Below, in pieces: positions 4,293-34,035 of a stretch of 64,000 bases of DNA. Position 1 is the first letter of the stretch, and each line of letters begins with the position of its first letter. This stretch comes from an uncultured Campylobacterota bacterium (GTDB lineage Bacteria > Campylobacterota > Campylobacteria > Campylobacterales > Sulfurovaceae), in the NCBI GenBank assembly GCA_937141405.1, contig CAKZQQ010000003.1, positions 1 through 64,000 on the forward strand. The letters run 5' to 3'. The notes beneath the pieces are model-generated. The model saw nothing but the letters and a program-made list of their open reading frames with translations, searched no databases and had not been told where the DNA came from. The position numbers were made by a program, and so were the translations under genes.

Positions 4293-5540
4293 TTAGAGAC
4301 CTACGTTTCCTAAAACGTCGTATTGATTCATGGTTCTTTGTGCTTCAATTTTTCTCATCGTATCAAGTGCGACTTGCACAACAATCAAAACAGCTGTTCC
4401 ACCAAAATAGAAGGTCGCACCCATTGAGTTAATCAAAACAAATGGTAGCGTAGAGATAGTAGCAAGATAGAGTGAACCACTCACTGTAAGCCTACTTGCA
4501 ATCTCGGTGATAAAATCTTTTGTATGAGCGCCCGGTCTAACACCGGGGATAAATCCACCTTGTCGTTTCAAATTATCAGCAATATCTTTTGCATTAAATG
4601 CGATCGATGCATAGAAGAAAGCAAAAAAGACGACCAAAACAAATGTTGTTAAGTTAAAAACAACTCCGCCCGGAGCTATAAAATCTGCAATTTGCTGCAT
4701 GATACCATTTTGGCTTGATTGCAACATAGTAAGAGGAAACATAAGAACCGCTGAAGCAAAGATCGGAGGAATAACCCCTGATAGATTTACTTTGATTGGT
4801 ATATAGTTCATCACTCTTTTTGTCTGATTTTGCATAATAGTTTTTCTAGAATAAGAGATAGGCACTCGTCGCTCGCCAAGCTCTATATAGATAATAACAA
4901 AAATCGTTATAAATATGATTGCCAAAATTGCCAGCACAACCAAGAAGTTCATCTCACCTGCATTGACTGATTTTACTGTATTAGATATGGCGCTCGGGAT
5001 TCCCGAAACAATACCGGCAAAGATGATGAGTGAAATACCGTTACCAATACCTTTTTGTGTAATCTGTTCACCAATCCACATAAGTAGCATCGTTCCTGCT
5101 AGCATAGAAAATGTAGCAATCACTGTAAATATAAACGGATCTATAAATACTGCTTGTTTACTTACTAAGCCCATGGAGACTCCGATAGCCTGAACAACAG
5201 TGATGAAGATAGTAAAGTAACGAATAATCTGCATATATTTTTGCATCCCGTCACGCTCTTTTTTCATCTGTCCGAGTGCAGGAAAAGTCGCAGCGAGTAA
5301 CTCCATGACGATAGAGGCAGTAATGTAGGGCATGATACCAAGAGAGATGATACTCATACGGCTAATGGCATTGCCGCTAAACATATTGGCTAAGCCAAGC
5401 GCATTTTTTGCGTTTTCGCCATCAAAAAAGCCTTTGATGACCTCCAAATCTACCCCGGGAGTAGGGATATAAGCCAAAACTCTATAAGCAAATATAAACC
5501 CAAGGGTTAGAAGAATCTTTTGAGTTAAGGTATTTGACAT
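4293..5540 (-). CDS. secY: Preprotein translocase subunit SecY
   Basis: 415 aa with about ten hydrophobic segments and conserved family motifs: AYIPTPGVD near the N terminus, MGIMPYITASI-like LGIMPYITAS, and RRVPISYSRK in the cytosolic loop. It forms the channel of the SecYEG translocon in the inner membrane. It follows rplO with a 1-bp gap, as in spc operons generally. Confidence 0.98.
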   Translation of the reverse strand: MSNTLTQKILLTLGFIFAYRVLAYIPTPGVDLEVIKGFFDGENAKNALGLANMFSGNAISRMSIISLGIMPYITASIVMELLAATFPALGQMKKERDGMQKYMQIIRYFTIFITVVQAIGVSMGLVSKQAVFIDPFIFTVIATFSMLAGTMLLMWIGEQITQKGIGNGISLIIFAGIVSGIPSAISNTVKSVNAGEMNFLVVLAILAIIFITIFVIIYIELGERRVPISYSRKTIMQNQTKRVMNYIPIKVNLSGVIPPIFASAVLMFPLTMLQSSQNGIMQQIADFIAPGGVVFNLTTFVLVVFFAFFYASIAFNAKDIADNLKRQGGFIPGVRPGAHTKDFITEIASRLTVSGSLYLATISTLPFVLINSMGATFYFGGTAVLIVVQVALDTMRKIEAQRTMNQYDVLGNVGL

Positions 5541-5541
5541 A

Positions 5542-5940
5542 TTATTTTCCGCTTGTTGTTATTGCTTCATCTTTGATCTTAGAAGCCAATTCTTTTGCAC
5601 TTGCACCTATTAATTTTACTTTTGTAACATATTTTGGAAGTTTGTAAACCTCTTTAATCGTCTCCAAACTCAACTCTTTAAGCTCTGCTACTGCTTTATT
5701 TTTGTCAACATTGATAGCATGAGCTTTGACAACTCTTGATACAAATCCTATCTTAGGAAGTCTCTTATAAAGTGGTTGTTGTCCACCCTCAAAACCTCTT
5801 TTTTCATTGTATCCGGCTCTTGATTTTTGACCGTTTTGACCTTTTCCGGCAGTCTTTCCTGTGCCTGAACCTTGCCCTCTACCGACTCTTTTTCTCTCTC
5901 TTGTCGATCCGTAAGCAGGCTGTAAATTATGTAATGACAT
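5542..5940 (-). CDS. rplO: 50S ribosomal protein L15
   Basis: 132 aa with the L15 Gly/Arg-rich N terminus ([17 protein letters not shown]) and the following [15 protein letters not shown] motif. It starts 9 bp after the rpsE stop. In most bacteria rpmD (L30) sits between these two genes; here there is no room for it. Confidence 0.98.
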
Positions 5941-5949
5941 CTTAGCTCC

Positions 5950-6393
5950 TTAAGATTTTATTCTTGCAAGAGCTTGTACTGTCGCTCTTACTAGGTTATT
6001 TGGATTATTTGAGCCAATAGATTTAGTAAGAATATCTTTAATGCCTGCAAGTTCGATTACCGGTCTTGCAGCTCCACCTGCGATAACACCCGTACCTTCG
6101 CTCGCCGGTCTTAGTAGTATTCTACTTGCATTAAATTTATGCTCTATATCATGTGCTATTGTTGAGCCTTTAATCTCGATTTTCACGAGATTTTTAAAGG
6201 CATCATCGACTGCTTTTTTTATGGCATCAGGAACCTCTTTGGCTTTACCAAATCCATACCCAACTGTTCCTTGTTTATCACCAACGACTACAAGAGCAGT
6301 AAATCTAAATCTTCTACCACCTTTTACAACTTTTGTAACACGGCCGATATTTACTATCGCTTCTTCGAAATTCTCTCTATCAATATTTTGCAT
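5950..6393 (-). CDS. rpsE: 30S ribosomal protein S5
   Basis: 147 aa with the double-stranded RNA-binding fold and the [17 protein letters not shown] motif, and [16 protein letters not shown] in the second half. Two ATG codons are adjacent (6396 and 6393). The AAGGA site is only 3 nt from the first and 6 nt from the second, so I place the start at 6393. S5 is a fidelity-related 30S protein. Confidence 0.96.
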
Positions 6394-15568: not shown

Positions 15569-15656
15569 AGAGGGGTGGCCGAGCGGTTGAAGGCGCACGC
15601 CTGGAACGCGTGTATAGTTAACGCTATCGAGGGTTCGAATCCCTTCCCCTCTGCCA
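15569..15656 (+). tRNA. tRNA-Ser, anticodon GGA
   Basis: 88 nt including an encoded CCA. The acceptor stem AGAGGGG pairs with CCCCTCT, the anticodon loop CTGGAAC sits on the stem CACGC/GCGTG, and there is a long variable arm (TATAGTTAACGCTATC) and T loop TTCGAAT. The long variable arm and GGA anticodon identify a serine tRNA reading UCC and UCU. Confidence 0.97.
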
Positions 15657-15823: not shown

Positions 15824-16171
15824 CTAAAAACGAATATATGCACCTACATCATTTATATCTTCAATTTTATCTACCGCCTCGGCAACAGCTTGAAAATACT
15901 TTTTCAATGTGGATCTATCGAGCAGTACAATCTCATTGCCAACATGCAGATGCGGAATCACCATGCCGCCCCTTAGTCCGTCTTTGAGAGAGAACACGGA
16001 TGCTTTTCTGGTAAAGCTCTTTATTCTGATTCGATCACTTTTTGCAAGTATATCTCTAAATTTATCTGCCGGGATAATTCGACTAAAATCAGGTATTGGC
16101 CATCCACCGCGTGATGGTTCAAGCCAAATCGGCTTAGTAGTATATGACAATTTGTCTATTTTTGTAGCCAT
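15824..16171 (-). CDS. Uncharacterised cysteine-free 115-aa protein of the radical SAM cassette
   Basis: I do not recognise a family. The protein has no Cys, no signal peptide and no membrane segment. It is basic in the middle, carries SRGGWPIPDFSRIIP near residues 20-34 and VIPHLHVGNEIVLL near 71-84, and ends in AYIRF. AAGGAG lies 5 nt before the ATG. It is the last gene of the cassette behind the radical SAM enzyme. It could be a substrate, a peptide-binding (RRE-like) partner or a modified protein itself; the sequence does not decide. Confidence 0.7.
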   Translation of the reverse strand: MATKIDKLSYTTKPIWLEPSRGGWPIPDFSRIIPADKFRDILAKSDRIRIKSFTRKASVFSLKDGLRGGMVIPHLHVGNEIVLLDRSTLKKYFQAVAEAVDKIEDINDVGAYIRF

Positions 16172-16251
16172 AATTTCTCCTTTTTATTGAATTTTTTTGC
16201 AAATCTTTTTGCAACCTCAAGTCGGATTTGTTGTTTATTGTTTCTATACAT
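16156..16251 (-). CDS. Possible 31-aa basic peptide between radical SAM gene and 115-aa gene
   Basis: The frame starts MYRNNKQQIRLEVAKRF and ends KLWLQK. It is preceded by AAGGAGGTG, a near-perfect anti-16S match, but only 2 nt from the ATG, which is unusually close. It overlaps the start of the 115-aa gene by 16 nt. It is strongly basic and amphipathic, with no Cys. It could be a peptide substrate of the neighbouring enzyme, a coupling leader, or chance. Confidence 0.3.
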   Translation of the reverse strand: MYRNNKQQIRLEVAKRFAKKFNKKEKLWLQK

Positions 16252-16272
16252 CACCTCCTTAATCTAGATTAA

Positions 16273-17367
16273 CTACTCTTTATGTGTGTAACCGAGCATA
16301 TGCTTTGCAAAAAGAGAGTTTTCTTGCAAAGAGTTAAATACATGCTTAGCAACAGTTATGGCATGACGCTCACTATGGCACATCATAGCGCTCATCTTAT
16401 CGGTTGCGCCCGTCATATGATAGTTGGTACAACCACACCAATTCATACAGTATTTTTTAAAAGTGCACTCCCCGCATTCCGCATTGCTACTTGCAAACTG
16501 TTTTCCGACAGCACATCGTGCCAAAAGATTAACGCCGGTATGGATATTGCCCATCATCATATCTACATCCGTATCATCACCGATAAGACGCTCACAAGGA
16601 TAGACATTGCCGCTTGGAGAAAAGCCGAACTCGCTCTCACCCATTCCACAACGATCCGATGCCTCATAACCGCCTTTTAGAAATAGGATCAACTTATTAT
16701 CAAGTAGATTAACCGCCACCTCTTGATCATTTTCATACATCTGTATATATGTATTAGCAACCTCTTTGTAGCTTTGAGTAATCAGGGGGAGGTGTTCCTC
16801 GTCCCAAGCAGCAGAGATGTCAGGATTGAGATGGATATTATGCACACCCTCATCCATCAAAAATTGCACTGTATTATCTAGTTGAACAACTGTGTCGGGA
16901 CCAAATACGGCATTCACTTGAAAATAATCAAGTTCTTGTGATATCTCTTCAAGATTTTTCAAAACTTTTTTAAGCGTACCGCGACCGTTTTTATATTTAC
17001 GCTTTTTATCATGGATATGTTCTGGACCATCAATGCTGATGCTCAATTGTATATTGTGCCTGCGTATAAATCGTAATATAGTATCATTGAATAATGTTCC
17101 GTTGGTCGTTATGTTAAAAGTGATGGGGTTTGAGACATCTTTAGTATGAATATAGGCAATGATATCTTCCATCAAAGCAAGCTCTAAAAAAGGTTCGCCA
17201 CCAAAAAAACCAAAATCAATCGACTCACTTGAGGGAGTAACGGCAAATGCAAAATCTATGATTTTTTTAGCCGTATCCATATCCATGATACGATTAAATT
17301 TTTCACCTGCATAACAATATTCACATCGCAAATTGCAATTATGGGTAATGCTGAGAGTTATTTTCAT
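16273..17367 (-). CDS. Radical SAM/SPASM peptide-modifying enzyme
   Basis: 364 aa from the ATG at 17367, which has GAGGAG 7 nt upstream. The radical SAM cluster motif is CNLRCEYC (Cys11, 15, 18). Next come FFGGEP and the SAM-binding ITTNGTL and SISIDGP segments. The C terminus is a complete SPASM domain: Cys240-X12-Gly-X4-Cys258, then Cys298-X2-Cys-X5-Cys-X3-Cys311 and Cys330, predicting two auxiliary iron-sulfur clusters. Such proteins mature ribosomally made peptides or sulfatases. No sulfatase is near, so peptide or protein modification by this cassette is inferred. The exact subfamily is not recognised. Confidence 0.88.
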   Translation of the reverse strand: MKITLSITHNCNLRCEYCYAGEKFNRIMDMDTAKKIIDFAFAVTPSSESIDFGFFGGEPFLELALMEDIIAYIHTKDVSNPITFNITTNGTLFNDTILRFIRRHNIQLSISIDGPEHIHDKKRKYKNGRGTLKKVLKNLEEISQELDYFQVNAVFGPDTVVQLDNTVQFLMDEGVHNIHLNPDISAAWDEEHLPLITQSYKEVANTYIQMYENDQEVAVNLLDNKLILFLKGGYEASDRCGMGESEFGFSPSGNVYPCERLIGDDTDVDMMMGNIHTGVNLLARCAVGKQFASSNAECGECTFKKYCMNWCGCTNYHMTGATDKMSAMMCHSERHAITVAKHVFNSLQENSLFAKHMLGYTHKE

Positions 17368-17431
17368 ATATGCACTCCTCTGCCGGATGCTTCTATAAAA
17401 CTGATAAAAAACCACTCTTTTCCATTAATAT

Positions 17432-17630: not shown

Positions 17631-18584
17631 ATGGTAAAATGTTTCATCAAAAAAGGAACGAGACTTGAGATCATAAAAGATTTGGAGTTGTTAACAGATA
17701 CTGCCGAACTTAAAGATGTCGTTTGGATAGATATGCTCCGACCTACCCGCACAGAGATTAAAACAGTCGAAGAGATGTTTGATATCAGCTTCCCAACCAA
17801 ACAAGAGAGTGAAGAGATCGAGATAAGTTCAAGATATTGGGAAGAGGGCAAGCGTATAGAGATCAACAGTTACTTCCTTATAAGCGATGATCCAAATCCA
17901 TACAATGAGACGGTATCTTTTATATTGCAAAATAGATTGCTCTTTTCGATTCGTTATAAAGAGCTTACGACCTTTAGTGAATTTAGCAAGCGCTTCCTCT
18001 CAACTCCAAAAGAGTTCAAAGACGGTTTTGATATATTTCATCAAATCATTGACATAAGAATCGATGCGGATGCGGATGCGATAGAAAATCTCTCAAAAGA
18101 GATCGCGAAGATTAGACGGCATGTATTTTCAGACTATACTCACGAAGATGAAGAGATACTTGAGAAAATCTCCGCGTTTGAAGATCTCAACATGAAGATA
18201 CGAGAGAACCTGACTGATAAACAACGCATCCTCACATCTATGCTCAAATCAGCAGTCGATAGAATAGCAACCGATGAGGTTATCATCATGCTCAAAGATA
18301 TCAAATCCCTCATAGAGCACACAGACTTTAACTTTGAGCGACTTGACTACTTGCAGAGTATCTTTGTGGGTATGTTGAGTATCGAGCAGAACAAAACAGT
18401 AAAGATATTTACAATCATCAATGTAATCTTCCTGCCGCCGACGCTCATTGCAAGCATCTATGGTATGAACTTCCACTTTATGCCTGAGCTTAGCTGGAAA
18501 TACGGCTATGTATTTTCAATAGCCCTGATGATACTTGCTTCCGTGAGCCCTCTATATATCTTTAAAAAGAAGGGGTGGATATAA
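17631..18584 (+). CDS. corA: CorA-type magnesium/cobalt transporter
   Basis: 317 aa. A long acidic and helical cytoplasmic N-terminal domain is followed by two membrane helices at the C terminus. The signature YGMNF (residues about 280-284) closes the first helix, and the protein ends with a short basic tail (IFKKKGWI). CorA pentamers import Mg2+, and some homologues carry Co2+ or Ni2+. In a genome that makes NiFe hydrogenase this is worth remembering, but the sequence does not show metal preference. Confidence 0.93.
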   Translation: MVKCFIKKGTRLEIIKDLELLTDTAELKDVVWIDMLRPTRTEIKTVEEMFDISFPTKQESEEIEISSRYWEEGKRIEINSYFLISDDPNPYNETVSFILQNRLLFSIRYKELTTFSEFSKRFLSTPKEFKDGFDIFHQIIDIRIDADADAIENLSKEIAKIRRHVFSDYTHEDEEILEKISAFEDLNMKIRENLTDKQRILTSMLKSAVDRIATDEVIIMLKDIKSLIEHTDFNFERLDYLQSIFVGMLSIEQNKTVKIFTIINVIFLPPTLIASIYGMNFHFMPELSWKYGYVFSIALMILASVSPLYIFKKKGWI

Positions 18585-31786: not shown

Positions 31787-32542
31787 CTATTTTTTATGGC
31801 TATGCCAAATACCTAAATCTTGTGCATCATGCGTATGCAAGAAACCTGCTTTATGTAAAAGCTCGTGATTGTTTACAAAGCTATTTACGCCTCCATCATA
31901 GATGATCTTGCCCTCTTTGAGCACGATAGCTCTCTCGCCTAACTCGGGAGCTAAAACAAGAGAATGTGTCGAAATGATCGAAGTAGACTCAAGACTCTGG
32001 ATATAATCAATCAATTTTTTACTCACTCCGTGATCCAAGGAACTCAACGGCTCATCTAAAAGTAAGAGCTCAGGATTCACAAGCAAAACACACGCCAAGG
32101 CAACTTTTTGCTTTTCTCCTCCACTCAGCATAAACGGAAAAGAATCCAATTTATCATGAAGTCCTAACATCTTTATGACTTGATCAATCTCTTTTTCCTC
32201 TCTTTGGATACCGAGCAATTCAATAGAAAAAAGAAGCTCTTTTTTGACGCTTTCACTAAAAAGCATCGCATCAATATTTTGAAACAACAAAGAGCACTCT
32301 TTTCTAAAATTTACAAAATTCTCTTTCTTTTTTAGAAAATTTGCCGTGATGAGCTCTCCTTTAAAGCGGTACTCTCCTTGCTGTGAAAAAATCAAACCAT
32401 TTAAAAATTTGAGGAGTGTACTTTTGCCACTACCATTGATGCCTAGAAGAACGATCTTCTCTTTCTCTTTTACACTGAGTGATAAGGAGTCTAAAATAAT
32501 CTGCTCATTTTGACTCAACACAATATCTTTACACTCAACCAT
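31787..32542 (-). CDS. nikO: Nickel ECF transporter ATPase NikO/CbiO type
   Basis: 251 aa ABC ATPase: Walker A GINGSGKSTLLKFL (about residues 34-47), signature LSGGEKQKVALA, Walker B LLLLDEPLSS. The C terminus carries scattered His (HTHDAQDLGIWHSHKK), which fits a metal transporter. It overlaps nikQ by 8 nt. Cobalt instead of nickel cannot be excluded, but the hyp/hyd context argues for nickel. Confidence 0.88.
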   Translation of the reverse strand: MVECKDIVLSQNEQIILDSLSLSVKEKEKIVLLGINGSGKSTLLKFLNGLIFSQQGEYRFKGELITANFLKKKENFVNFRKECSLLFQNIDAMLFSESVKKELLFSIELLGIQREEKEIDQVIKMLGLHDKLDSFPFMLSGGEKQKVALACVLLVNPELLLLDEPLSSLDHGVSKKLIDYIQSLESTSIISTHSLVLAPELGERAIVLKEGKIIYDGGVNSFVNNHELLHKAGFLHTHDAQDLGIWHSHKK

Positions 32543-33104
32543 AATAACCTCTCGATCTTAACGCCAAGTTGTTTTCCTTGGAGAGTAAAAGTGCTTTGTG
32601 AAAAAGAGTTACAGCCAAAGAGGCTATAAGTCTGAGGGTATCCGAGAAACTTTTTGTATTCATGCCTCTGCTTGCTGCAGCTTCATAGCTCTCTTTTAAT
32701 ATACGGATAAAAAGTTCTTTTTTTGCCAAAAACAAGACAATAAAAAGCCGTATCTCTTTTGTGATGCCAAATACACCTACAATGCCAAATCTATTGATAA
32801 AAGATATTGTCAGATATGTTAACACGAATGAGCGCCAAACAAAGATAATCTGCTGTGTTAGATCAATGTGTCCTGTCAAATAATAGATAAATATACCGTT
32901 TATAAATGCTACGAAAAACGAGAAAATAAAAACGGCAAAAAATGTAAATTTCAATACATAAAACCGCTCTTTAGAGATCAAAAAAGCGATAACACTCAAT
33001 ATACCAAACAGCATCATACTTGATGATGATGCGGTAAAAATAAGTGTTGCAATCAAGATAACCAAGAGCACCTTACTTATAAAAAAGTCAGAAAATCGGT
33101 CCAT
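32535..33104 (-). CDS. nikQ: ECF transporter transmembrane component NikQ/CbiQ type
   Basis: 189 aa with four to five membrane helices and the CbiQ-family C-terminal AAASRGMNTKSF coupling motif (about residues 135-146) that contacts the ATPase. It is immediately downstream of nikN. Shorter than typical CbiQ (about 225 aa). Confidence 0.85.
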   Translation of the reverse strand: MDRFSDFFISKVLLVILIATLIFTASSSSMMLFGILSVIAFLISKERFYVLKFTFFAVFIFSFFVAFINGIFIYYLTGHIDLTQQIIFVWRSFVLTYLTISFINRFGIVGVFGITKEIRLFIVLFLAKKELFIRILKESYEAAASRGMNTKSFSDTLRLIASLAVTLFHKALLLSKENNLALRSRGYYG

Positions 33105-33386
33105 CTATTTTACTTTGATGCGTTTCAAGGCATAGAAAAAACCAAAACTCATCGCCACTCCTATGATTGCACTAATAATAGTACTTAAAATCGCTCCTAG
33201 GTTACCTACCTCATAATCCGGCATCGGCGCATTGATACCTGCATCCTTTACCCCTTCAGGTATGTAGCCAACCAATGTTTGAAACTCTTCTACTCCCCAT
33301 TCTCCCCAAGCAGAATATTCACTGATAAGCCCCAAAGGAGTCAACGCAACCATTATCAATAAAAATATTATTAATTTTTTACGCAT
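33105..33386 (-). CDS. nikN: Small accessory membrane protein NikN type (PDGLE-like)
   Basis: 93 aa with an N-terminal helix (IIFLLIMVALTPLGLI), a periplasmic loop containing APMPDYEVGNLG, and a C-terminal helix (IISAIIGVAMSFGFFYAL). This layout is that of the PDGLE/NikN subunit of nickel ECF importers. The start overlaps nikM by 8 nt. Confidence 0.83.
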   Translation of the reverse strand: MRKKLIIFLLIMVALTPLGLISEYSAWGEWGVEEFQTLVGYIPEGVKDAGINAPMPDYEVGNLGAILSTIISAIIGVAMSFGFFYALKRIKVK

Positions 33387-34035
33387 GTACGCCCCCTTTT
33401 ACTCTTTCAAAGAAATTAACGATAGCCACAGTAACCAACCCTTCGATAACTCCAAATATCAGGACATGAGAACCAACAACCGCCGGGAATGTTACCGTGA
33501 GATCAAATGGGAAATAGAGCGCTTTGCCATCTTGCATAAACAAGAGAGGCTGGATCCCAAGTATGATAGCAACAGCTATACTTGCTGCCACCATTCCCCC
33601 ATAACCCGCGACAAAAAAAGCTATCGATTTTGGTATTTTTTTGCCCAAAAACTCATAGAGGTAATATGCACTAAATGCCCCTACAAATCCCATCGAAAGA
33701 GAGTTAGCCCCAAGTGCTAATACGCCGCCATCCCCAAATAACACTGCTTGAAAAAATAATACAGCACTAATAGCTATAAATGCCGTCCAAGGACCAAGCA
33801 ATATAGCCAGCACGGCCATACCGACAGCATGGCCGCTCGTACCTCCCGGGATGGGGATATTTATCATCATAATAAGAAACGAAAAAGCTGCCAATGAGGA
33901 TAAATAAGTTACAGAATCCTCATTTTCATTTAAAAACTTCTTTGTCTGTTTTACTCCATACCACCACAACGGAATCGCCAAAGCTAATCCGGCAATAGAT
34001 GTAGATGGCGATATGAAACCATCAGGTATATGCAT
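33379..34035 (-). CDS. nikM: Nickel ECF transporter substrate-binding membrane protein NikM/CbiM
   Basis: 218 aa beginning MHIPDGFISP, where Met1-His2 form the metal site of this family. Six or so helices follow, with GGTSGHAVGMAVLAILLGPW in the core. It heads the nikMNQO run. Together they import Ni2+ across the inner membrane for hydrogenase. Confidence 0.9.
   Translation of the reverse strand: MHIPDGFISPSTSIAGLALAIPLWWYGVKQTKKFLNENEDSVTYLSSLAAFSFLIMMINIPIPGGTSGHAVGMAVLAILLGPWTAFIAISAVLFFQAVLFGDGGVLALGANSLSMGFVGAFSAYYLYEFLGKKIPKSIAFFVAGYGGMVAASIAVAIILGIQPLLFMQDGKALYFPFDLTVTFPAVVGSHVLIFGVIEGLVTVAIVNFFERVKGGVHA

Follow-up and report, generated by a model that had tools for sequence, protein, structure and literature searches.

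What does a radical SAM/SPASM enzyme modify when the only gene that travels with it encodes a small protein of no recognised family? The question is raised by a compact cassette in the 64,000-nucleotide stretch of DNA analysed here (the window), lying between a tRNA-Ser gene (15569-15656, plus strand) and a corA-like gene (17631-18584, plus strand). On the minus strand, a 364-aa protein assigned to the radical SAM/SPASM class from its sequence and from Pfam and NCBIfam (16273..17367) is followed, after a gap of 101 nt, by the gene for a 115-aa protein (15824-16171), hereafter the partner, which has a Shine-Dalgarno sequence (AGGAG) upstream and is the probable dedicated substrate. The coordinates, strand and order given in an earlier sequence-only reading proved right when the window was read again. 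The enzyme is taken to start at the ATG at 17367 because this codon is conserved in relatives; the GTG at 17415, a mechanical call that would give a protein of 380 aa, was rejected. The tRNA-Ser gene was also considered as an integration site and set aside, the tRNA 3' end having no repeat in the window and the G+C content being ordinary. Elsewhere in the window, a large NiFe hydrogenase block (24893-45426) combines structural and maturation genes (hyp-type genes and hydrogenase proteases) and encloses a cobalt/nickel-type ABC transporter (31787-34035).

The enzyme displays the CX3CX2C motif of a SAM-binding 4Fe-4S cluster (C11, C15 and C18; 17314..17337, minus strand), read from the sequence and conserved in orthologues, followed by a SPASM region (16378..16650, minus strand) composed of CX12GX4C (C240/C258), CX2CX5CX3C (C298/C301/C307/C311) and C330. 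The SPASM cysteine pattern had been described as complete, and indeed all seven residues occur at that spacing and are invariant among orthologues, as are C285 and C313 in an alignment that lacks the N-terminus of one orthologue (G056), for which this part was supplied from separate sequences. Pfam Radical_SAM (PF04055) scores 64.5 bits against a cut-off of 29.5, and the Pfam SPASM model stays sub-threshold at 16.3 bits against 21.5. The radical SAM core starts near residue 1, with no N-terminal RRE domain. The top-scoring NCBIfam models are peptide or protein maturases, and no listed model reaches its curated cut-off, the nearest being that of PapB (NF047865); the anaerobic sulfatase maturase model (TIGR03942) gives 125.5 against 349.45 bits. 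A structure model of the enzyme built from four sequences was too poor to use (pLDDT 47). Further radical SAM proteins were observed: a second SPASM-type protein encoded by this genome, 460 aa long (L048 2938-4320; contig C6, about 224437-225819), whose N-terminal extension may be a PqqD/RRE-like domain, and distant radical SAM/SPASM-like proteins of Campylobacter phages (records H37 and H39), about 23% identical to the enzyme.

The partner is a real gene, since its homologues keep frame and length and dN lies below dS (0.39 and 0.89 for the closest pair of genomes), at identities of 36-55% to the window copy and 31-55% pairwise. As first claimed, it is free of cysteine and of family assignment, with no Pfam or NCBIfam match at E up to 1; the four partners contain 0, 1, 0 and 0 cysteines, none of them conserved. 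A PDB sequence search returned no meaningful match, and Foldseek comparison of the partner model with PDB and viral models gave none at E <= 0.001. Two segments are invariant among the partners. The first, GGWP[IV]P (residues 22-27; 16091..16108, minus strand), occurs as a string once per genome in all four genomes carrying the pair, only in the partner, and is a candidate modification site. The second is a GG...PHxH...EI.L.D block (residues 68-85; 15917..15970, minus strand), predicted to run from a beta hairpin into a helix. The structure model has a pLDDT of 69.6, with residues 31-40 and 81-100 near pLDDT 90, and suggests with moderate confidence the order helix, strand, helix, two strands, two helices.

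By contrast, the possible 31-aa basic peptide noted between the two genes did not survive comparison with relatives. The spacer ORF (31/32 aa; 16156..16254, minus strand) has a strong Shine-Dalgarno sequence and reaches into the first codons of the partner gene, and its coding is not conserved. In the closest relative, of the same genus (L007), the homologous spacer contains in-frame stops and a deletion with both neighbouring genes intact. No such spacer exists at the loci in G056 and G542 (L012 and L003), where enzyme and partner are separated by about 20 nt and overlap by 14 nt, respectively. On the strength of these broken or missing spacers, the peptide was rejected as a cassette component and is not regarded as a gene.

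How faithfully do enzyme and partner stay together? We searched for the partner in overlapping sets of 59 relatives, 175 genomes of the family, 399 of the order and 397 of the phylum; beyond Campylobacterota, coverage consisted of exact short peptide patterns together with plasmid and viral collections. The partner is present only in four Campylobacterales genomes (G000, G008, G542 and G056), each time directly downstream of the enzyme, and at the family level the pair occurs in 3 of 175 genomes. The G008 locus and L007 are one and the same 4326-base contig, and the number of independent loci is four. Enzyme orthologues scoring above 600 bits are confined to the same genomes, and the next enzymes, at about 227-271 bits, form a separate sister group. 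The pair is adjacent in 4/4 genomes, without an orphan enzyme orthologue or orphan partner among the genomes searched; a check set beforehand, looking for partners without the enzyme, thus found none in these genomes and upheld strict co-occurrence. Plasmids and viral contigs yielded no partner homologues. Weak matches in G004, G042, G021, G273 and G654 (E 0.0003-0.09) were not accepted, the one in G654 being a response regulator.

The surroundings of the pair differ at all four loci. In G008 it is flanked by purH, in G542 by a VanY-like peptidase gene and hemC, and in G056 by a cytochrome c peroxidase gene and an M23-like peptidase gene (names in the latter two genomes taken from translations), and none of these changing flanks has space for a third conserved gene. 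The view of the cassette as a minimal two-gene system is therefore borne out: the pair recurs in the order enzyme-partner and no other gene is shared, with no transporter, protease, sulfatase or cofactor genes linked to it at the loci. Also seen near the cassette in G542 (L049 2868-10975) was a gene for a very long helical-repeat protein with a terminal metallopeptidase-like HELTH segment, in a gene run that includes an acyl-carrier-like protein, a ketosynthase, an amidohydrolase and a caspase-like peptidase.

Within the pair, the two genes change at very different rates: for the same pair of genomes, dN is 0.39 in the partner versus 0.086 in the enzyme, about 4.6 times faster. Substrates of such enzymes often change fast yet keep short invariant blocks.

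A related arrangement is seen in the sister group. Enzymes from the same bacterial family (L026-L033), about 33-39% identical to the one described here and with the same cysteine pattern, each come with a single linked small gene. Here the small gene lies upstream and its product is lipoprotein-like, whereas in the pair from the window the partner lies downstream. The genes overlap by 4 nt where coordinates were checked (for example, 4928-6025 and 6022-6285 in L027; 1774-2871 and 2868-3134 in L033), and the small proteins combine a lipoprotein-like signal sequence with a variable tail, often containing GGMP. The small protein of L031 reaches 23.9 bits with an MNIO-class RiPP peptide model, below the cut-off of 40. 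Homology between the partner and the sister small proteins, which share a GG(M/W)xxP look, was considered; no significant similarity emerged in HMM or profile comparison, so the resemblance is kept as a lead and not as an established relationship.

Which known system comes closest? Judged by sequence, the pair behaves as a RiPP-type maturase pair yet fits no named one. The ranthipeptide maturase PapB is likewise a SPASM enzyme, one that modifies peptides and has a small substrate as its companion, and its model gives the best NCBIfam score (234.7 bits, covering almost the full model), which nonetheless falls under the cut-off of 340 bits. PapB crosslinks Cys-X3-Asp/Glu motifs (PMC9413430), which the partner lacks along with any conserved cysteine. 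A similar picture holds for SCIFF maturases: the best PDB sequence match to the enzyme is 5wgg (E 2.4e-40, with an alignment spanning the radical SAM core and SPASM), but TIGR03974 gives only 164.7 bits where 425 are required, and the Cys-rich peptide substrate is missing. The entry 5wgg, which we take to be the SCIFF maturase CteB, is matched from about residue 85 onwards, so its N-terminal part is missing from the enzyme here. Systems making thioethers of the sactipeptide, SCIFF and QhpD kind thus differ on both sides of the pair, no substrate cysteine being conserved and the enzyme scoring below the respective cut-offs.

Triceptide enzymes (XncB and OscB) provide a Cys-free comparison, crosslinking Trp, Phe, Tyr or His at position i to the residue at i+2, reported with Trp to be Asn, Asp or Arg (PMC11002830). 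They share with the cassette a SPASM enzyme and, in GGWP[IV]P, a conserved Trp, and the invariant Trp-Pro-Ile/Val of the partners is, from its sequence, a candidate aromatic-X-X segment. However, the i+2 residue is Ile or Val in the partner, and the GrrM/OscB model scores 85.8 against a cut-off of 310 bits on the enzyme. The description of the cassette as undescribed holds within the family libraries scanned and the open literature searched, which contained no paper on this cassette and none tying radical SAM/SPASM enzymes to Campylobacterota or Sulfurimonas; on RiPPs in Epsilonproteobacteria, the one item was a selenoprotein review that touches on them in passing.

Taken together, the partner as the sole other conserved gene, its faster change with invariant blocks, the sister pairs and the single GGWP[IV]P per genome favour the partner as substrate. 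We consider it somewhat better than even that the partner is the dedicated substrate of the enzyme in a Cys-independent reaction, perhaps at GGWPxP; its role, the site and the chemistry are all deduced rather than observed. The cassette would then be self-contained, the enzyme modifying the 115-aa product of the gene that immediately follows its own. In the radical SAM/SPASM class, the SAM-bound cluster gives rise to a 5'-deoxyadenosyl radical and auxiliary clusters accept an electron; here, the radical would act on the partner, with the auxiliary Fe-S clusters as electron acceptors. Since the partner has no conserved cysteine, thioethers such as those made by PapB, SCIFF, sactipeptide and QhpD enzymes are unlikely and the product should be Cys-independent. 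Crosslinking through C-C or C-O bonds, epimerisation and dehydrogenation may be envisioned, with the invariant GGWP[IV]P segment or PHxH as the likeliest place; crosslinking that starts at the invariant Trp or at a His would be compatible with this, and so would epimerisation. Several points count against the substrate role: independent loci are few (four), the partner would be an unusually long peptide precursor and shows no recognised leader, its model has no fold match, and neither a protease nor an exporter is linked to the pair at the loci.

Linkage alone does not tell a substrate from an adaptor, and the main competing explanation, which we regard as unlikely though well short of negligible, is that the partner acts as an adaptor or chaperone, an RRE stand-in presenting an unlinked substrate to the enzyme. 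Because the enzyme has no RRE domain of its own, the partner might fill that place, and its C-terminus is predicted to be partly folded into a hairpin and helices; stand-alone RRE partners are known, such as PlpY beside PlpX (PMC11002830). However, the partner matches no PqqD/RRE profile in Pfam or NCBIfam at E up to 1, and the loci share no third conserved gene. RRE topology, a fold of three strands and three helices, begins with the three strands, and the element order predicted for the partner does not open in this way. Moreover, the invariant GGWP[IV]P lies in a poorly structured part of the protein, which would suit a modification site better than a binding fold.

Still less probable is that the partner is a structured metal- or cofactor-binding protein (HxH...E) given a cofactor-like crosslink. 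QhpD, the model for this idea, installs thioether crosslinks on the gamma subunit of quinohemoprotein amine dehydrogenase. The PHxH...E...D residues are invariant, the C-terminal half of the partner is modelled with fair confidence and the enzyme resembles the QhpD model (TIGR03906) at 153 bits; this score is nevertheless far under the 453 bits required for QhpD, no cysteine is conserved in the partner for thioethers of this type, and no linked enzyme gene could take it as a subunit. Linkage by chance or shared transfer without joint function, to which the rarity and patchiness of the pair (and hence few independent events) might lend itself, is highly improbable, as the flanks differ at all four loci and the order is kept across spacings from the 14-nt overlap to about 100 nt despite the divergence of the partner.

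The partner as dedicated substrate remains the preferred reading. More tentatively, and on balance doubtfully, the pair may represent new chemistry, in which a Cys-free, partly folded protein of 13-14 kDa is modified at GGWP[IV]P or PHxH with no leader-binding domain, protease or exporter taking part. If the substrate role is true, the cassette would constitute a two-component system, expressible as a whole, in which a protein and not a short peptide undergoes Cys-independent radical modification, the partner offering two narrowly delimited candidate sites. For the phylum, the cassette marks a corner of radical SAM/SPASM enzymes in Campylobacterota that lies outside the curated family models scanned, and the sister subfamily with its lipoprotein-like small genes adds further SPASM diversity to these bacteria.
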